IMG/VR virus record: IMGVR_UViG_3300025120_000755
Span: 1-20,113 of that record
Length of the DNA: 20,113 bases
Direction: 5' to 3' (one strand)
Origin: a virus
In this document: positions 6,020 to 19,941 of the stretch, piece after piece
How positions within the stretch are numbered: position 1 is the first letter of the stretch
Layout: the number at the start of each line of letters is the position of its first letter
Notes under the pieces: generated by a model
The model's database searches: none
Seen by the model: the letters and a program-made list of their open reading frames with translations, nothing else
What the model was told of the DNA's origin: nothing
Program-made: the position numbers and the translations under genes

Positions 6020-6640
6020 ATGTTAGGTTTTTCCCCATTATCATCTAATCCGCTTGCGTCTCAAGAAGTTGTTTCTAATGGGGTTGTAGTAACGCTAGAC
6101 TTTACAGCGGTTAAGGCTACAGGTGTCGTAGATAGCAATCCTGTTCTTGTTACTGGGGCCACCGTTGCACTTCTTGATTTTACGGCTGTTAGGGCTGTTG
6201 GATTTGTTGCTGCTGTTTCCGAAACAAAGACAGGTTCTGTTGTAACTCCTGATTTTACGGCTGTTAAAGCTAGTGGTGTTGTAAGTGGCGTTACAGCAGC
6301 GGTGGGGGTTACTGTAACTCCTGATTTTACGGCTGTTAAAGCTAGTGGTGTTGTAAGTGGCGTTACGACAACAGTTGTAACAAGGGTGCTTCTTGATTTT
6401 ACGGCTGTTAAAGCTAGTGGCGTTATAAGTGACGTTGTTGTAATTGACGAAGATTCGTGGAGCATCGTCGTAACTGATGCAAACAATCAGTGGTTGGACG
6501 CTCAAAACGGAGCATCTAATACATGGTTGTCCGTACCTACTGTGAACAATCAATATGTCGAGCTTGCTCCAAATCCCGGAAACAGCTATAATGCTGTGGA
6601 GCCTTCTCCGGGAAACACTTGGACAACTGTGGCTGCGTAA
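6020..6640 (+). CDS. Tandem-repeat tail protein with two different repeat arrays
   Basis: This 206-residue protein is built mostly of repeats. The first array has five units beginning at residues 27, 53, 78, 102 and 126, each with the core LDFTAVKASGV or a close variant (unit lengths 26, 25, 24 and 24 residues). The second array runs from residue 147 to the end and shows an aromatic residue every 10-11 positions (W147, W158, W169, Y179, Y190, W201), usually preceded by Asn-x and followed by a hydrophobic residue: NQWLDA, NTWLSV, NQYVEL, NSYNAV, NTWTTV. I recall Asn/Trp repeats of the second kind at the ends of phage structural proteins. The first array I do not recognise. Sited among fibre genes, it is likely a fibre shaft or spacer. 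AAAGGATG lies upstream of the ATG. Confidence 0.7.
   Translation: MLGFSPLSSNPLASQEVVSNGVVVTLDFTAVKATGVVDSNPVLVTGATVALLDFTAVRAVGFVAAVSETKTGSVVTPDFTAVKASGVVSGVTAAVGVTVTPDFTAVKASGVVSGVTTTVVTRVLLDFTAVKASGVISDVVVIDEDSWSIVVTDANNQWLDAQNGASNTWLSVPTVNNQYVELAPNPGNSYNAVEPSPGNTWTTVAA
6241..6366 (+). repeat. 54-bp exact direct repeat, 72-bp period, inside the 6020 gene
   Basis: The bases at 6241-6294 are repeated exactly at 6313-6366. The period of 72 bases equals 24 codons, and the unit encodes TPDFTAVKASGVVSGVT. More diverged units lie before (cores at about 6098 and 6176) and after (about 6395). Near-identity at synonymous positions points to recent duplication or gene conversion of this unit. Confidence 0.9.
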
Positions 6641-11950: not shown

Positions 11951-12126
11951 TAAGAAAATGTGACTGTGAAAACGACAGTTTAAAACAATTAATATTGTCT
12001 GCGCACAACACTTATAGAGGTGTTTGCCCCAAGTGCGGCATAGATTGGACACAAGCTGCAATAACAGGAAGACAATCTGCAACGGTCTTCGTTACTGCTC
12101 CTCAAGCGGCATCAGGAGAGACATAA
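11947..12126 (+). CDS. 59-residue zinc-ribbon protein
   Basis: This small gene runs from the ATG at 11947, overlapping the previous stop as ATGA, to a TAA at 12124-12126 that overlaps the next ATG by one base. The protein has two cysteine pairs, C5-D-C7 near the start and C27-PK-C30 (RGVCPKCGIDW), separated by 19 residues. That is the arrangement of a four-cysteine zinc ribbon. The C-terminal half is Ala/Gln/Thr-rich without further motif. Zinc ribbons in phages occur in transcription, DNA and structural proteins alike, so function is open. Its exact fit between two overlapping neighbours and the intact cysteine pairs argue that it is a real gene. Confidence 0.75.
   Translation: MIRKCDCENDSLKQLILSAHNTYRGVCPKCGIDWTQAAITGRQSATVFVTAPQAASGET
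12114..12120 (+). promoter_or_regulatory. Strong ribosome binding site (AGGAGAG) deciding the start at 12126
   Basis: AGGAGAG sits 5 bases before the ATG at 12126. It favours this start over an in-frame ATG at 12024, which would place 34 extra residues in a different frame over the zinc-ribbon gene. Confidence 0.7.
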
Positions 12127-12905
12127 TGGTTAATATTGTGGCGGCAATCGGTGGGTTGGTTGGCTTTGCGATGGGCGGTCCCGCAGGCGCGGCCCTCGGT
12201 GCTGGAATCGGGAGTGCTGGTTCGGGCAGTAGCTTAGACAATATCTTAAAAGACGCTGGCATGGCTTTTGGAGCGGGAGCTATTCCCGGTGTGGCGGGTA
12301 TGGCTACAGGCATGGCGGGAAAAGCAGGACTTGCTGGTTTAATGAGTCCGCAGGCTTTGGCGGCGAGTGCTCCGGGGGCAACCTTTGGAGGCAACCTGAT
12401 GTCCGCGGCACAACCCTTTTTAGGGGCTGGTGCAAAGACTGCGGCAAAGACTGCGGCAACTGGTCTTGGAAGCGGGGGAACTGGTGCAACTGGCGGTTTG
12501 GGAAGTCTAACGGACGGGTTGCCCTTTGATCTCAAGGATCTTGCAATAGCGCAGCTAATGGCTTCAGGGCAACCTAAACCTATTCCGTTAACAGAACAAC
12601 AAAAGTATCTAATGAGAACGGGTGAAACTAGCGACTATCAAGGCACTGCCACGCCTCAGTCACGAGCAACGAGACCTACCATGATGGCGGCTCAAGGCGG
12701 TTACATTGAAGGTCCCGGCACAGGAAAGAGTGATAGTATCCCGGCTATGATTTACCAGAACGGAGGCCCGGTTCAGGAGGCTGCTCTTTCGGACGGGGAG
12801 TTTGTTATGACTGCGGACGCGGTCAAGGGTGCGGGAAACGGTAGCCGTGCGAAGGGGGCCGCTGAAATGTATCGGATGATGAATCAATACGAACGGAGAG
12901 CGTAA
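12126..12905 (+). CDS. Gly/Ala-rich probable internal or ejection protein with DGEFVM motif
   Basis: This is a 259-residue protein. Residues 1-130 are very rich in Gly and Ala with zipper-like small-residue periodicity (IVAAIGGLVGFAMGGPAGAA, then LGAGIGSAGSG), compatible with helices that associate with or cross membranes. The C-terminal 70 residues contain GPGTGKSDSIPAMI, YQNGGPVQEAALSDGEFVM and TADAVKGAGNGSR, ending in a helix with GAAEMYRMMNQYE. I know this C-terminal module (GPGTG.SDSI.A.LSDGEFV..A.AV.G.G) from many phage structural or tape-type proteins. Its role is not established. Its place after the tail hub and ahead of the giant protein suggests an ejection protein comparable in position to P22 gp7/gp20 (inference). 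The start at 12126 follows AGGAGAG. Confidence 0.75.
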   Translation: MVNIVAAIGGLVGFAMGGPAGAALGAGIGSAGSGSSLDNILKDAGMAFGAGAIPGVAGMATGMAGKAGLAGLMSPQALAASAPGATFGGNLMSAAQPFLGAGAKTAAKTAATGLGSGGTGATGGLGSLTDGLPFDLKDLAIAQLMASGQPKPIPLTEQQKYLMRTGETSDYQGTATPQSRATRPTMMAAQGGYIEGPGTGKSDSIPAMIYQNGGPVQEAALSDGEFVMTADAVKGAGNGSRAKGAAEMYRMMNQYERRA

Positions 12906-13987
12906 TGGCAGATAGTGGTCAGATCGTAACTAACACAAGTATGCAGGTCAAACCGAAGTATCTTGAAGATGCACAAAAAGATTTATTAGCAAACATTTAT
13001 GATGTGAATCCTCGGTACGATCTTCCCGAAACTCTTCAGCGTAGAGAAAACTATGACCCGGAAGGAGGACTTTCTGAGTTCTTCTACACAGATGTAGATG
13101 GTAATGAACTTGACTACGCTCTTCCCGAAGGAGTTACGTTTGACAACGTAACAGGTGCGTTTGACGTACCTCAAGATATATCGGGTATTGCTACTAAATC
13201 TGTTCTTGAAGGGGTTCTAAAACCTGCTGTTGCCGCACTTACTCCTTTACAGCAAAAAGCTATTCAAATGGGTGCCGAAGGTATTGGCTCCTATCAACAA
13301 TACCTTGACGATGCTGAAGGTAGCTTCGGAGAAGGGTTGGACGCTTTACGCACCAGCCTTGGAGCGTATGATCCTCAGTCGTATAAAGAGTACATGGACC
13401 CGTACACTCAAGAAGTTATTGATTCCACGTATGCTGATTTAGATCGACAGGGATTAGTTGACTTAGCTAACTTAGGTTCAAACGCCGTTGGTGCAGGAGC
13501 TTTCGGGGGTTCTCGTGACGCTATTGCTAGAGCAATGTATGGTCGAGATGTTCGGGATCAGAAAGCAGAGTATGGTTCGAAGATGAGGTCTGACGCTTAT
13601 AGAACGGCTCAAAAACAAGCGCAGTCCGCGTTTGAGAATCAAATGAATCGCAATCAAACCGCAGCGGGGGTTTTCCAGAACTTAGGAACTAGCCAAGGTG
13701 CTTTGGGTAGCTCCCAACAATCTCTTGATTTTAATGATCAAGCGAACTTGTTGGGTTTAGGTGGTTTGGAGCAAGCGCAGCAACAGTCTGAGTACGATGT
13801 TGCTAGAGAGGGTCAGATAGAAGCTAACTTAGAACCGTTTACTAGGTACGGTTACATGAGTGATGTCATACAGGGAATGCCTTCTGGTCAATCAGCCATA
13901 AACACAGGTGGTGCTCCTGCTCAGAATACAATAGGTAACACGGTTGCTGCCGCAGCCGGACTTAATTCGTTAGGAAATTTAAAATGA
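12905..13987 (+). CDS. Probable internal virion protein, Gln/Ala-rich helical
   Basis: This is a 360-residue protein. After an extended N-terminal third, residues about 155-270 form long helices with a conserved-looking stretch: YKEYMDPYTQEVIDSTYADL, then LANLGSNAVGAGAFGGSRDA and helices rich in Gln, Ala and Arg (RTAQKQAQSAFENQMNRNQT). I recall this pattern (YM.PYT..VID....D..RQG, AVGAGAFGGSR) from marine phage proteins found beside ejection or internal virion genes. No catalytic site is evident. The long helices without cysteines fit a protein that can unfold to pass the tail channel (inference). Both ends overlap neighbours (TAATG and ATGA), indicating coupled expression with the other ejection candidates. 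Confidence 0.75.
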   Translation: MADSGQIVTNTSMQVKPKYLEDAQKDLLANIYDVNPRYDLPETLQRRENYDPEGGLSEFFYTDVDGNELDYALPEGVTFDNVTGAFDVPQDISGIATKSVLEGVLKPAVAALTPLQQKAIQMGAEGIGSYQQYLDDAEGSFGEGLDALRTSLGAYDPQSYKEYMDPYTQEVIDSTYADLDRQGLVDLANLGSNAVGAGAFGGSRDAIARAMYGRDVRDQKAEYGSKMRSDAYRTAQKQAQSAFENQMNRNQTAAGVFQNLGTSQGALGSSQQSLDFNDQANLLGLGGLEQAQQQSEYDVAREGQIEANLEPFTRYGYMSDVIQGMPSGQSAINTGGAPAQNTIGNTVAAAAGLNSLGNLK

Positions 13988-15300
13988 CGGTTAACAATAG
14001 GGCGTTATTTCAGAAGAAAAGTAGTCCCGTTAATATGCCTAGTTATTCGGACACAGCGGCACGAGATACGTTACGTACTGTAGGGGGAGTAGCACCAAAA
14101 GGTATTATGTCTTCTTCTCCAGAATTAATATTAGCGCAGCTTGGTCAGATTTTGCAGCCTAAAGGTCCGAGAACCAATGTTGTCCCAATGGGAGGACCTC
14201 CTCCTGCGGGATCAAGGCTTCCGCCTCCCGTTCCTGTCCCGGATATTGCGGGTACTGGAGCAATGCAGCGTGTTACCCCTAGACCTGCTGCATCAATGCC
14301 TAGACCTGCTGCATCAATGCCTATGCCCATGCCGCAAGGTAATCCCATGTCCGGTTCGTTGCAGAATAAGCCGGGGTTTCATGACGGAGGGCCAATAGGT
14401 CATAATCATGGAGACGATGCGTTACGGAGTATGCAAGCATCTATGAACACCCCCAAGGAGCCGACTTCTGGTGGGTTCATGGACAAAGCAAAAGGATTCA
14501 CGGACAAAGCAAAAAAAGTTTTTAACTTTAACCCTAATCGACGTTATGAGGAAAGTATTCCCAAAAACTTTAATGATTTGTTTAAATTAGGAGACAATCT
14601 AATAGTTAATGGTTTAGGCGGACCCGAAGTTCGTGGAAAAAGAAAAGAAAAACTAGATGCGATACGCAAAAAGGTTTTGGAAGCAAAGAAAAATCCACCC
14701 CCAAGGGAAGAGTTAGAGGCGGCTGCGTCTCAGGCTGCTCCGGGCACCCCTAAAGAAGTGTTAGCCGCCGCAGAAGTTGACGAATTGTTAAAAGTTATGG
14801 TAGGTGCAGAACTAGCAGCGGCAATGGCTAGTCCTGTTATTAACAGGCAAACAGGTGCTGTGGTTCGGGAGAGTGACGCTCAACGTATTGGGAACGCAGC
14901 GGTTAGAGCATCCAAGGCTAAACTTGCCGTTGAGATGGGCCGTGAGCAGAATGAGCTTGATCGTCAGAAATCCGAGGCGGTTGCTCGGATACAATCGACA
15001 AAAGGCACAGGTCTTAAACTAAAAGATCAACTGGATATTTTTGTTAAATTGTTTGGCGAAGTTAAACCGGATTTTGGCAATGATTCTGATAAAGCAATGG
15101 CGGAAATGAGGAGGTTGCATCCCATCTTAACAAAGACGTTTGAAGACTTTAGTGGGGGCAACGCGCCAAGCACCGGGCCAGTAAATAGTGTTGCCTCTCC
15201 AGAACAACAAGAAGCCTATGTGATTGAGTTTAAAAAACTTAACCCAGAAACTACCGCGACAGATGAACAAATCAAACTTGCCACCCCCTCAGACTATTAG
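13984..15300 (+). CDS. Proline-rich / helical probable internal virion protein
   Basis: This is a 438-residue protein in two parts. Residues 1-135 are low in structure and rich in Pro, Met, Gly and Ser, with a 7-residue tandem repeat (RPAASMP twice) and then FHDGGPIGHNHGDD (nt 14377 onward). Residues about 155-438 are strongly charged and helical, with Lys/Glu-rich stretches (RGKRKEKLDAIRKKVLEAKK) and Ala-rich helices. I do not recognise a named family. The HDGG-HNHGDD stretch resembles motifs found in other phage virion proteins and, with three His and several Asp, could bind a metal (inference). It overlaps the preceding gene by 4 bases and is separated from the giant gene by 9 bases holding AGGTGA. 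Confidence 0.7.
   Translation: MTVNNRALFQKKSSPVNMPSYSDTAARDTLRTVGGVAPKGIMSSSPELILAQLGQILQPKGPRTNVVPMGGPPPAGSRLPPPVPVPDIAGTGAMQRVTPRPAASMPRPAASMPMPMPQGNPMSGSLQNKPGFHDGGPIGHNHGDDALRSMQASMNTPKEPTSGGFMDKAKGFTDKAKKVFNFNPNRRYEESIPKNFNDLFKLGDNLIVNGLGGPEVRGKRKEKLDAIRKKVLEAKKNPPPREELEAAASQAAPGTPKEVLAAAEVDELLKVMVGAELAAAMASPVINRQTGAVVRESDAQRIGNAAVRASKAKLAVEMGREQNELDRQKSEAVARIQSTKGTGLKLKDQLDIFVKLFGEVKPDFGNDSDKAMAEMRRLHPILTKTFEDFSGGNAPSTGPVNSVASPEQQEAYVIEFKKLNPETTATDEQIKLATPSDY
14278..14319 (+). repeat. 21-bp exact tandem duplication inside the 13984 gene
   Basis: Two adjacent exact copies of a 21-base unit (14278-14298 and 14299-14319) encode PRPAASM twice. A degenerate third unit follows (PMPMPQ). It lies in the disordered proline-rich N-terminal part of the protein. 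Confidence 0.9.
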
Positions 15301-15309
15301 GTGATTTGA

Positions 15310-18300
15310 ATGGCTGAAGCTCCCCTTAAATCTTTACCAGAGGGTTCCATACTTCCGGGTCCAAGAAACAATTCTATTAAATCTTTACCAGAGGGTTCTA
15401 TACTTCCGGGTCCAAGGACCCAGCCTGAAGACGAAGACAAACGAAATGTTGTTGGAGACGTAGTTTTGGGCGCGGTCTATGGTCCTTTGTCCATGGTTCA
15501 AGGTTTGAATGAGTTAGGTGCCGCAGCGTTTGACAAAACATTTGGTACGGAAACAACAGATGATGTCACTGAGTTTTACGACTGGGCCTTGGATGCCATC
15601 AAACCAGAGACCGGGGCAGGAAAAGTAGCTTCTGTAGCCACAGAAATTGGTGCAAGTCTTGTTCCGTTTATAGGCTGGGCGAGTAGAGCTTCTCAAGTAG
15701 CACGAGCTACAAAGATGGGTATAGACGCTTCTAAAGTTGTAGCACCTGCAAAAAGCATTTTTGGCAAGTCCGCAGAAGCCTATGGCAAGTCCAAAGCAGG
15801 ACAGGCGTTGTTGGCTAACACCAGCAAAAGTCTCGGAGGTAGAACAGCACGGTCAGTAGGTGTTGGGGTTCCCATGGCGGGTTACACTGCGGGTGTGGAG
15901 TTTATGTTTAGCCCGGACGGACGGTCCACGCTTTCTGAGTCTGTTGGGTTTTTGCCTGATGCCTTACACACAGAAGTACATCGCGGAGATTTGGAGGACG
16001 ATAATGCAGGACGCATTTTACGAAACAAATTTAGACGAGGTGTTGAAGGTGGTGCGTTAAGCGTGGCTTTTGATTCTGCAATCATGGGTCTTACACAAGG
16101 AGCTAGAATAGCTGGAGGGATTACTCCTGTACACAAAACAGCTAAGTTTATTTCCGAACGAGCCGCATCTCTAGGCGGTGCCGTTGCAGCTAGTAGAGTT
16201 GGGCAAAGTGCTCCTGTTCAAAATGCAAAAGAATTTGCAACAAAATGGTTTACTCCGGACGGTGGTGCAGATCCTTTTCTTACAAAAACAATTAGGGACA
16301 TAAAGGATCGGGAAGACCTGATGCAGCGTAGGGCATTAGATATTATGGACGAGCTTCACTCAGCCTCGGATAACGTTCTCAAAAAAGGTAGTTTCTGGGA
16401 AAAAACTAAACCGCAGGCTGAAGAGTTCAAGCCTCGTCTTAATGCTTACTTACGCGGAGGTCATTCATTCCCCCGTAAAGTATTTCCTAATGATCCCAAC
16501 TCCGATGAAATTATAGACGCAACTATTTTTGCTAAAAAATACGGCAAGGAAGTTCGTGATGCAGCCGATAAGATGGTAGCTTTAAAATCTGAGTACGAGG
16601 ATCATATGATGAAGATGCTTGAGGATGCTCGTTCCTCGGCACCGGACGGATCTGACACCCAAAAATGGGCGAAAGAAGCTATAAGTATTATTAAACTAGC
16701 GGATGAGTCTTCCGAATCCTATATGCGCCAGTTGTATGAAGCACACGAAAATCCTTTAAAGTTTCTTCGTAACCTAGATTTTTCTAACGCTACTACAAAA
16801 AAACTATACAACGAGGCTACTGATCAAGTGTTTAAACACTTGAGAAACACAGACGAGTATAGTCCAAAATCGGGAAAGACAGATGTCGAGGTGTATGACA
16901 AAGCTCGTGGAGTTGTAAACGAGTCAATACATTTGCCTGCGGCCTCTATTCCCGGCGCAAACATGAACAAGGTTCTTTCTCTAGCAATTAAAGAATTTAA
17001 AAAAGCAAATACCATGGAGGGCACTGGTGGGCTTATTGCTCAAAGTACTCCAAAGGTATCTTTGGATGAATCTGTGTTAATAGAACGTAAGGAGATATTG
17101 CAAAAAACTCCTGCGCTAAAAGAGCTTATGGGTGAGATACAAGATCCCCTAGAGTCTTTCACTCGCACTATGTCGGACATGTCAAAAACCCTTTCAGCCC
17201 AGAAGTTTTACAACACATTATCTAAAGATAAGGGTCTTACAAAACTTTTAACACCTAAAACATTACAACAAATTGTGAATGGAGAGAAACCATCTATTGT
17301 TTTAGTTCCTAAAATTGAAGCCATACTTGCAGCTAGTAAAAAATCGGCTCAAGGCCAAGGCGTTAATAAAAAGAACTTAACACAAGAACAGTACGTCAAA
17401 CAATTTGCAGCAAGTGCTGAAGCTGCGGATAACGCCGGGGATATTACTACTAAGGTTTTTGACAACTTTGAAGCAAGTCGTGTAGCCAATCTTACCCCCG
17501 AAGATTATTTAAGGGAAGCTGAAGCAGGTCCTCAACAAAACACAACCTTTACCCTTGACCAATATAACCGTGATTTGGATAAACTCGGTAAAGGAGGCTT
17601 GGGCTATAGGCAACTTTCTGACGAGGATGCTAAAGAGTTATCTATGGCTGGCGGACCTAAGAACATATTGGGCGGCACTTATGGGGATTTGTCTGGAGCA
17701 TTCGTATCAGAAGAAGCCTACCGTGCGCTAAAAACTCCGCTCAATATTTCTCCTTTTAACGGCGTAGCCTCAGTGTTTCAGCAACTTAGAGCTTTCTCAC
17801 AAAAAATGGCTATTGTACCAAGCCCTGCCACACAGATTAGAAACATAATTGGTGGCATCTCAATGTTGTTCATGAACGGCAACTTGCAACGAAACCTTGA
17901 CATGGTAGAAACGTTTTCCTTGTTTACTCGCAGTCTTGATCAATTAGATGATGCAGGTTTAAAGAGGCAAGCTCAGATTCTAAACGCTACAGGCTTGAGA
18001 GACTCAAGTGTTATTTACAAATCTCTCAAGGAATATCAAGCGTTTGGTCGCCAGATAAACGCGGGGGAAAAGGTTGGCAAAGTATTGGACGGGATAGAGG
18101 ATCTCGTTCCGTTTATGCAAAAGTTTGAGAAGCTATACGCTAACTCAGATGCGTTTTTTAAAGCGGTTGCTTTTCGGGGAGAGTACAACAAACTAGCAAA
18201 TGCGTTTACCATGGGCGGTTTTGATATAGACGCCAAGATCAACCCTTTGATCTTAGATGAAATGCGTAAAGGTGGGTTACTTACTCGTTCATCTGGTCTG

Positions 18301-19941
18301 ACCACAGGTTTAACAGACCTAGAGTTGTTTGCTGCGGAGTTAGTCAAAGACACAATGCCTATGTATGACAGAGTTGCTCCAGCTATGCGGATTCTGGATC
18401 GGTTTCCGGTACTTGGTAATTTCACATCCTTCGCATCTGAGAACGTCCGTAATAGCTACAACATACTAGAACGAGGTATGAAGGAGCTTTCTTTTGAAAT
18501 TGGACCGGATGCTAGAGAAGAGCTAATTAAAAACCGTGTAGCAAGAGGCGAGGCACCGGAAGCTGTAGAAGCGGCATTAAAACAGTTTGAGGTTGGCATA
18601 CGATCTAATGGTTCTCAACGTCTGACTAACGCGATTGCTGGTGCCACCATTTATCCAAAGATGATTACTCAGTATTCTCGCAAAATGACAAATACAACGG
18701 ATGAGGAGAACCAAGGGTTACAGGATAGTGTGCAAGAATACGCGACTGGTGGAGATTTCTTAATTTTAAGCAACGATAAGAAAGGCAACATTGAGTATGT
18801 AGACCTTAATTACCACAATCCTTATGGCTACTTAGTGGCGGCGGGAACTTCTGCATTGCGTACTTACGACAAACAAGGTCGATTGGGCAAGGATGAAGCG
18901 TCACAGATTGCTAACACAGCTATGGACTTCTTGTCCAAGATCGCTGATCCGTTTGCCAGTGAAACACTGATCTTTGAAAGGCTTCGGAACTCACTGCCTA
19001 AAGAAATGCTTGTTGGCAGGGGTGGGATGACAGACACAGGAGCTAAAATCTGGAGAGATTCCGATTCCTTGGGAGATAAGATGGTGAAGGGCATGGCCCA
19101 CATTGTTGAAGGTGTTACGCCCCGGTATTTCCTAGAGATTGCCGAGGAGAAGGGTGGTCGTGTTCGTCCGGGCAAAGTGTATCGGTCCCTGACCGGAATG
19201 CCTGATGCCTCTGGCATAAAGGATTATGATCCGATTGAGGAGGGCGCGAGATTAATTACGGGTTTAACGACTATGGAATTAAATCTGAACAACACTTTTA
19301 ACTTTGCGGCCTCTGAGTATGCGTCTATTAGATCGGACGCCAAAGGTGCCTTTACTGGAATGTTAGATGATGCAGATCGAACAGCCGACGATATGGTTGA
19401 CGCTGCATCCCAGTACATACAAACGGCTATTAGGTTGCAGACAGAAATGTTTGGTAAGTATCAAGCTGCAATTAAAACAGGGGCGGACCCCAGAAAAATA
19501 CGTCAATCAATGACAAAGGATGCAAATCTCAGCGTGGACGAGGCTACCGCGATTATGCGTGGAGAGCTTTATATCAAGGGCGTTGCCCAAGACATGTTTA
19601 GAGACATACAAGAACGTCAACGTAGAAAAGAAGTCGAGCCTATGGCAGAGATTCCTGTGTTTAGAATACAGGAACTTGTTCGGGAGAACCTATACCGGAA
19701 GCTAGGTAGTGACGAGGGGTACGGAGCGTTTCAAGATATTCCATCTCCTACGTCCGTGTTGCCAGCAGGTTCTATACTTCCCCCACCTAGAATCGCTCCC
19801 GCTCCCGCTCCCGCTCCTGTTCTACCGACTGGTTCTATACTTCCTCCACCTAGAACCCCGGCCCCAACAGGGAAGGTTAGTCCGATACTGTTAGGTGGAG
19901 ACCCTGCAACAAAGGCACTAGCAGAACAGCTTGGTCGTTAG
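15310..19941 (+). CDS. Giant probable internal virion / DNA ejection protein
   Basis: This 1543-residue, mostly helical protein closes the structural operon. Its size and last position fit the large ejection protein of podoviruses (T7 gp16 or P22 gp16 role), which is packed in the head and enters the cell with the DNA. Two copies of an 11-residue motif open the protein (LPEGSILPGPR at residues 9-19 and 26-36), and two variants close it (LPAGSILPPPR at 1484-1494, LPTGSILPPPR at 1505-1515, joined by an APAPAPAP linker). Residues about 50-75 and 110-125 are hydrophobic and Gly/Ala-rich, possible membrane-active segments. The middle has a SPATQIRN motif (838-845) that I recall from large marine phage proteins. 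I see no convincing transglycosylase or protease active site. Its TAG stop overlaps the stop of the convergent polymerase gene. Confidence 0.75.
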   Translation: MAEAPLKSLPEGSILPGPRNNSIKSLPEGSILPGPRTQPEDEDKRNVVGDVVLGAVYGPLSMVQGLNELGAAAFDKTFGTETTDDVTEFYDWALDAIKPETGAGKVASVATEIGASLVPFIGWASRASQVARATKMGIDASKVVAPAKSIFGKSAEAYGKSKAGQALLANTSKSLGGRTARSVGVGVPMAGYTAGVEFMFSPDGRSTLSESVGFLPDALHTEVHRGDLEDDNAGRILRNKFRRGVEGGALSVAFDSAIMGLTQGARIAGGITPVHKTAKFISERAASLGGAVAASRVGQSAPVQNAKEFATKWFTPDGGADPFLTKTIRDIKDREDLMQRRALDIMDELHSASDNVLKKGSFWEKTKPQAEEFKPRLNAYLRGGHSFPRKVFPNDPNSDEIIDATIFAKKYGKEVRDAADKMVALKSEYEDHMMKMLEDARSSAPDGSDTQKWAKEAISIIKLADESSESYMRQLYEAHENPLKFLRNLDFSNATTKKLYNEATDQVFKHLRNTDEYSPKSGKTDVEVYDKARGVVNESIHLPAASIPGANMNKVLSLAIKEFKKANTMEGTGGLIAQSTPKVSLDESVLIERKEILQKTPALKELMGEIQDPLESFTRTMSDMSKTLSAQKFYNTLSKDKGLTKLLTPKTLQQIVNGEKPSIVLVPKIEAILAASKKSAQGQGVNKKNLTQEQYVKQFAASAEAADNAGDITTKVFDNFEASRVANLTPEDYLREAEAGPQQNTTFTLDQYNRDLDKLGKGGLGYRQLSDEDAKELSMAGGPKNILGGTYGDLSGAFVSEEAYRALKTPLNISPFNGVASVFQQLRAFSQKMAIVPSPATQIRNIIGGISMLFMNGNLQRNLDMVETFSLFTRSLDQLDDAGLKRQAQILNATGLRDSSVIYKSLKEYQAFGRQINAGEKVGKVLDGIEDLVPFMQKFEKLYANSDAFFKAVAFRGEYNKLANAFTMGGFDIDAKINPLILDEMRKGGLLTRSSGLTTGLTDLELFAAELVKDTMPMYDRVAPAMRILDRFPVLGNFTSFASENVRNSYNILERGMKELSFEIGPDAREELIKNRVARGEAPEAVEAALKQFEVGIRSNGSQRLTNAIAGATIYPKMITQYSRKMTNTTDEENQGLQDSVQEYATGGDFLILSNDKKGNIEYVDLNYHNPYGYLVAAGTSALRTYDKQGRLGKDEASQIANTAMDFLSKIADPFASETLIFERLRNSLPKEMLVGRGGMTDTGAKIWRDSDSLGDKMVKGMAHIVEGVTPRYFLEIAEEKGGRVRPGKVYRSLTGMPDASGIKDYDPIEEGARLITGLTTMELNLNNTFNFAASEYASIRSDAKGAFTGMLDDADRTADDMVDAASQYIQTAIRLQTEMFGKYQAAIKTGADPRKIRQSMTKDANLSVDEATAIMRGELYIKGVAQDMFRDIQERQRRKEVEPMAEIPVFRIQELVRENLYRKLGSDEGYGAFQDIPSPTSVLPAGSILPPPRIAPAPAPAPVLPTGSILPPPRTPAPTGKVSPILLGGDPATKALAEQLGR
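15326..15417 (+). repeat. N-terminal direct repeat (51-bp period) encoding LPEGSILPGPR twice
   Basis: Bases from about 15326 and 15377 repeat for about 41 positions with a single C/T difference, which is silent (TCC/TCT, Ser). They encode KSLPEGSILPGPR at residues 7-19 and 24-36. Near-identity at the DNA level indicates a recent duplication. Confidence 0.9.
19759..19854 (+). repeat. C-terminal motif pair (LPxGSILPPPR) with APAP linker
   Basis: Two motif copies (residues 1484-1494 and 1505-1515 of the giant protein, 63 bases apart) share GGTTCTATACTTCC with each other and nearly with the N-terminal copies. They are joined by a hexamer-type DNA repeat (GCTCCC units near 19795-19817) that encodes alternating Ala-Pro. 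Confidence 0.85.

Follow-up and report, generated by a model that had tools for sequence, protein, structure and literature searches.

Few virion proteins diverge as strongly, or are understood as poorly, as the ejection proteins and the way their stack is ordered. In the T7 virion core, gp15 forms an octamer and gp16 a tetramer, and "molecular tape" residues in the N-terminal part of gp16 bind flexible C-terminal regions of gp15 (reviewed in PMC8954989). The PhiM1 ejectosome is built from an octameric and a tetrameric ring (PMC11440229). Open-access papers yielded no account of docking domains or short linear motifs for ejection proteins of phages, and none is known to have been described elsewhere. 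Sequence patterns and gene order suggest to us that a short terminal peptide of a gp16-like ejection protein is probably a tag, docking this protein to a reader module of the gp15-like protein encoded just upstream.

The window, i.e., the whole analyzed stretch of 20,113 bases of the virus record IMGVR_UViG_3300025120_000755, encodes two SU10-type adaptors, a 632-residue structural protein (phrog_3287), a DNA ejection protein, proteins of 438 and 1543 residues, and the end of a DNA polymerase, a gene order that fits a marine podovirus. The two adaptor paralogues (PF24175; 631-1305 and 1949-2974) belong to a single virion gene cluster. The protein encoded at 1305-1952 ends FNWSAATSHPLRFSTTSDGTH...LFYYCQYHSQMGG, with a His, Cys, His, Met spacing that resembles a cupredoxin copper site; its sole Pfam match was sub-threshold and to a non-cupredoxin family. 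A 206-residue ORF at 6020-6640 contains tandem repeats, TPDFTAVKASGVVSGV, with a 72-bp period, 2.7 copies, and 84% matches. At the other end, the minus strand encodes the C-terminal portion of a DNA polymerase of family A, which exits the contig (19942-20113; VHDEL motif; PF00476, E 1.7e-7, slightly under the curated cut-off).

The T7-like small-middle-large order of ejection genes (order as in PMC8954989) is present on the plus strand at 12024-12905, 12905-13987, 13984-15300, and 15310-19941. The first of these genes, annotated as the longest ORF with its actual start probably at 12126, encodes a small glycine/alanine-rich protein whose SDSIPAMIYQNGGPVQEAALSDGEFVMTADAV stretch gave weak PHROG tape-measure matches. 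Many of these phages conserve a EGPGTGKSDSIPAMIYQNGGPVQEAALSDGEFVMTADAV stretch in this protein and its homologues, with weak matches to tape-measure families. The second encodes a 360-residue member of a DNA ejection protein family (phrog_4287, E 4.5e-9), the third the 438-residue protein, gp15-like by gene order and directly upstream of the last, and the last the 1543-residue large ejection-type (gp16-like) protein which bears the tags. The 438- and 1543-residue proteins had zero matches to known families in Pfam and PHROG, and homology to the T7 gp15/gp16 families was not detected in these databases. Polyvalent phage proteins combine several recognizable enzymatic domains within a single large packaged protein (PMC5512222); the 1543-residue protein is without a Pfam domain and so does not fit this type.

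The sequence-only reading of this DNA had reported LPxGSILP[GP]PR at residues 9-19, 26-36, 1484-1494, and 1505-1515 of the 1543-residue protein and nowhere between, and a re-scan reproduced this; a six-frame search of the window for LP.GSILP returned no copy beyond these four. Both N-terminal copies read LPEGSILPGPR (15334..15366 and 15385..15417), and their DNA is near-identical as claimed, with two synonymous changes per 33 nt. The C-terminal copies, on the plus strand like the former, read LPAGSILPPPR (19759..19791) and LPTGSILPPPR (19822..19854). An alignment of 16 homologues shows that the extreme C-terminal tail VSPILLGGDPATKALAEQLGR (19876..19938, plus strand) is alike across the family, independent of tag type. 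The sortase LPXTG sorting signal was considered and rejected, as the window motif reads LPxGS and is present at the N-end too.

The same reading expected a conserved motif. When IMG/VR was scanned with DNA patterns encoding LPxGSILPxPR, using TCN or AGY for serine, there were chance matches only, in antisense or spurious frames, so the exact peptide is not widespread, and the search for LPxGSILP[GP]PR yielded no other genuine occurrence in that database. The whole 1543-residue protein as a query found no close relatives in viral contigs and none that was confirmed in genome contigs; Pelagibacter phage HTVC027P and phage 023Pt_psg01 encode distant relatives. Homologues were reached via the neighboring 632-residue protein and then by alignments, and full-length ones are present across many marine phage contigs. 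The 15 homologue-bearing loci found via the 632-residue protein all lack LPxGSILP[GP]PR. Two more scans brought the set to at least 123 complete distinct ORFs; pattern and homologue scans covered IMG/VR, and counts hold among the matches listed (at most about 80 loci per scan).

These homologues have short peptides of their own, as a rule in duplicate at the N-end and with a counterpart near the C-end, such as NPLEGLTPEMFN (L028), LPEGFTLDAAP (L039), FDDLVP (L047), LPPGFVPV (L056), EFVPQPY (L025), and MFGDPV (L085). Among 107 non-redundant homologues, the alignment score between a protein's own N-tail and C-tail averaged 51.1 versus 26.4 with C tails randomized (null sd 0.76; top of 5000 shuffles 29.6), and the likeness of the two tails thus exceeds chance. 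With explicit patterns, partly designed after inspection of the data, exactly two copies per end (2+2) were found in 26 of 36 lineages, and in these 36 only one loose pattern matched inside the body. In the contigs tested, the sole tag match outside the large protein is to FVDLVP, in a frame of 318 residues in G008. The sequence-only reading had named equal-length homologues without the motif as a refutation. Homologues do lack that sequence, but many bear another peptide at the same 2+2 sites, so conservation concerns the tag layout and how it pairs with the neighbor's C-terminal module rather than LPxGSILP[GP]PR. As far as these sequences tell, the exact motif is private to the window virus and the tag layout is shared by many of its relatives. 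About half of the homologues (59/107 with an own N/C score <50) are without a clear C-end copy, which implies that C-end tags are dispensable in some; in some the module is at the N-end only or absent altogether. In one large protein (L165), a 35-residue domain-like module (VEIxxVGxVxFPxSMxxEEIxxAIxTxI) is repeated at both ends instead of a short peptide.

Between relatives with 81-98% identical bodies, the peptides differ at both ends, and each end matches its own other end. Such swaps were seen in L039/L092 (body identity 98%), L025/L085 (94-96%), L176/L183 (95%), L163/L109 (92%), L115/L116 (88%), and L181/L227 (81%). By this comparison, close relatives appear to exchange both ends together. 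In L117 and L110 (body 94%), both C-ends hold LFGEP (LFGEPAE) followed by an NPF-type peptide and the N-ends hold one type each, LFG in L117 and NPF in L110; the mixed C-ends look like a switching intermediate. Matching ends and concerted swaps would be accounted for without any partner if the peptide bound itself and so linked large proteins in series, N-end to C-end. We consider such homotypic self-assembly quite unlikely since it leaves unexplained that tag type predicts the neighbor's C-end, as well as the inverted cases in which the upstream protein bears the tag and the downstream one the folded module (both below). Two sites per end in disordered tails would likewise suit the removal of both tails by a phage maturation protease with a specificity that varies by phage. 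Processing is very improbable, however, as swaps at >90% body identity would demand a new protease specificity every time, the tag sequences are without a common cleavage logic, and pairing with the neighbor's C-end is given no reason.

Tandem copies inside one end share 64% and 62% of their codons, versus about 37% expected, whereas codon identity between N- and C-end copies is 296/715 (0.414) versus a codon-usage expectation of 0.377. The N-C sharing is at chance level, which indicates that the match between ends is maintained by selection on the protein and not by DNA copying. The recent duplication suggested by the sequence-only reading therefore holds inside each end but not between the ends. 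The window's own N-C codon sharing is 10/20 versus 5.6 expected, and in the window itself there may be some N-C DNA kinship. If the tags were neutral repeats arising from local low-complexity DNA duplication, gene conversion would make the N- and C-ends alike and hitch-hiking would link them to the neighbor. The codons shared by tandem copies agree with such an origin, and so does the adjacency of tag and reader in the DNA, which leads one to expect joint exchange through recombination to some degree. Against it stand the chance-level N-C codon sharing (41% versus 38%) and the presence of the pairs in unrelated carriers and in both polarities, which hitch-hiking cannot produce, and we regard neutral repeats as highly improbable.

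Of 121 homologue loci, 119 have an ORF of the 438-residue kind upstream of the large gene; its product has a conserved N-terminal part and a variable C-terminal end. When these C-ends were tabulated beside the tags, tag class tracked C-end class across distant body clades, and the last 25-40 residues of the upstream protein appear predictable from the peptide type. LFGxPV, MFGD, and FGGIPV tags pair with ...EYDALPPGSEFIQNGxKRxKP C-ends, FDDLIP and NPFxDL tags with helical ARxAIxxGADPxxVxxRLxxMGIDPxxL C-ends, LPxGFxLD tags with TATGPNGEKIRWDGTKWQKV, FEIIDPGTP tags with SYFEANRPKNANAVYTFGGVTYKN, and PPGLSP tags with YDSTGKPFYSTDGTNYVDADGNPYVPP. There are also inverted cases where a folded module opens the large protein and a short peptide, e.g., SLDDI or GFKVIK, closes the upstream one. 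Among 104 homologues, FGxxP tags and YDALP ends coincided in 8 of 8 with zero unpaired (p 4e-12), FDDLIP-type tags were joined with the helical C-end in 9, and LPxGFxL tags with WDGTxW ends in 6 with one exception in each direction. An apparent FDDLIP exception (L047) has its reader encoded in a separate frameshifted ORF and adds to the helical class. A family-wide partial Mantel test gave a partial correlation of 0.134 (null sd 0.016), barely above the 0.126 obtained with the upstream protein's middle part; this is significant, but the control is not clean, and we therefore rely on the class tables and on independent scans.

Terminal peptides are a common docking means of virion proteins. The tags might bind another target, such as the portal, the capsid, the tail, or a host protein, and several left-hand structural genes diverge too in L025/L085. 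We consider this unlikely in view of the pair G001/G002, in which identity is mostly 89-96% for the genes that follow the large protein, up to the far contig end, but 42% for the protein just upstream (G002 includes little upstream sequence), and because the neighbor's C-end predicts the tag in unrelated carriers. Among the roles that the sequence-only reading proposed for a functional short motif, docking to another ejection protein is the one favored here; roles in portal binding, packaging, or processing gained no specific support.

The independent scans covered IMG/VR and their counts apply among the matches listed. The first used a YDALP[PSAT]GxxF DNA pattern; of the 74 ORFs with YDALPxG, 71 have it at their C-end. 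The genes that follow YDALP ends make up 30 sequence clusters, few of them from the large-protein family. A strict aromatic-P-V tag was found at the N-end of 34/56 of these proteins versus 27/500 control N-ends, and at least two tag copies in 20/56 versus 6/500; by eye, most remaining N-ends have looser forms (WWDDAPL, FGGIAV, WLKQAIPV). Within this class there is a finer code, as W-tags occur with F-x-x-P-DG readers 28:4 and FG-tags 3:12 (p 1e-5).

The second scan, with T[AV]TNPxTGE, gave 17 C-end and 27 N-end modules among the matches listed. A loose PxGFxxD-type regex matched the gene after the C-end TATNP module in 16/16, mostly twice, one of these matches (L380) probably being chance. Before N-end TATNP modules, the C-end of the previous protein bears the tag in all 26 of 26 by eye, 21 of which the regex also matched, the other five being PPPGAKVD, LPPGAKLD, LPQGAVLD (twice), and PPKGMKIN; the control rate for TATNP was about 6.5%. 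Among the matches listed, YDALPxG ends were followed by aromatic-xx-P-V tags in 42/52 and GFxxD tags in 0/52, and TATNPxTGE ends by GFxxD tags in 15/16 and aromatic tags in 1/16. At the level of sequence, this confirms that the YDALP and TATNP codes are separate and that pairs recur between unrelated carriers. An inverted TATNPxTGE pair is found between two annotated ejection proteins of a cultured phage, Pseudanabaena phage Pan3, where one protein ends PPPGFVMDN and the next begins MQEGATATNPQTGERVVLRGGQWVPMG.

By position and gene order, the window's own reader would be residues 406-438 of the 438-residue protein (15199..15297, plus strand), which contain QEAYVIEFKKLNPETTATDEQIKLATPSDY, and a low-confidence model points the same way. 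In AlphaFold2 models, which are of single chains, the C-end of this protein is a helical module with pLDDT 84-86 (residues 411-430; protein mean 52), preceded by a linker with pLDDT below 50 (residues 392-402), as would be expected of a tethered reader. One weakly similar reader was found among the loci examined, in L114, whose tag DFIDPTPAD differs. The window's tag and reader are rare, and their pairing thus rests on gene order and the low-confidence model. The 33-residue YDALP module was modeled as a short helix and a beta-hairpin (pLDDT 80). A PDB fold search with this reader gave no significant match, and the reader modules had no match in Pfam, docking families included.

The co-occurrence of tag and reader is observed directly; that the two physically bind, and that the same reader serves N- and C-end tags, we infer. 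In the docking arrangement proposed here, the large gp16-like protein would present two tag copies in each disordered tail, and its gp15-like upstream neighbor would terminate, at the C-end, in a small folded reader tethered through a flexible linker; in the window, the pair would be the tag peptide KSLPEGSILPGPR and the 406-438 module. Binding would bring both proteins into the correct assembly order within the capsid, and the contact might be used a second time in the periplasmic tunnel, post-ejection. With two tags per end, each large protein could hold two gp15-like subunits, which fits the eight-to-four gp15-like/gp16-like rings of other podoviruses. What the C-end copies would contribute, whether a second contact, avidity, or a role at a different stage, is speculation. 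The tag/reader pairs would vary among phages and be exchanged in matched sets. On balance, and with less assurance than for docking itself, we favor a general, orthogonal, and exchangeable code that joins consecutive ejection proteins in tailed phages, where matched sets move between unrelated proteins, polarity can flip, and assembly is kept phage-private in co-infection. If true, consecutive ejection proteins could be paired from sequence alone, the shuffling of dissimilar proteins between phages with assembly intact would be explained, and a small orthogonal connector set would become available for protein engineering. A function would also be suggested for terminal modules of many phage proteins annotated as hypothetical.

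With T7 gp15/gp16, this system would share gene order, size order, and the contact of a gp15-like C-terminal with a gp16-like N-terminal part, whereas the available part of the T7 review (PMC8954989) mentions neither a repeated short tag nor a distinct reader module. For PhiM1, the portion at hand gives domain-level contacts and describes neither tag nor reader, and its eight-to-four arrangement would give two readers per large protein (PMC11440229). Another small phage module is PF24243 Phage_tail_C, a 26-residue phage tail tip domain of which ten residues align with YDALP-type ends, at 18.2 and 17.5 bits and thus under the Pfam cut-off of 23.7.

The nearest analogue is the docking domains of polyketide and non-ribosomal peptide synthases. 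Those are different proteins, no Pfam docking family matched by sequence here, and the phage peptide is tandemly repeated, often at both ends of one protein. In the phages, the folded module is usually at the C-end and the peptide at the N-end, with both polarities used. Compared with beta-hairpin docking domains, the AlphaFold2 model of the YDALP reader has a helix and a beta-hairpin, and the window's reader was modeled as helical. As judged from sequence patterns and gene order, a peptide of less than about 15 residues faces a folded module on the opposing termini of consecutive gene products, as in short linear motif docking. The synthase domains of the short linear motif/beta-hairpin type (PMC9113145) combine a disordered terminal peptide with a small folded terminal partner module, as proposed here, and likewise comprise several unrelated pair types that are exchangeable and set the order of assembly.
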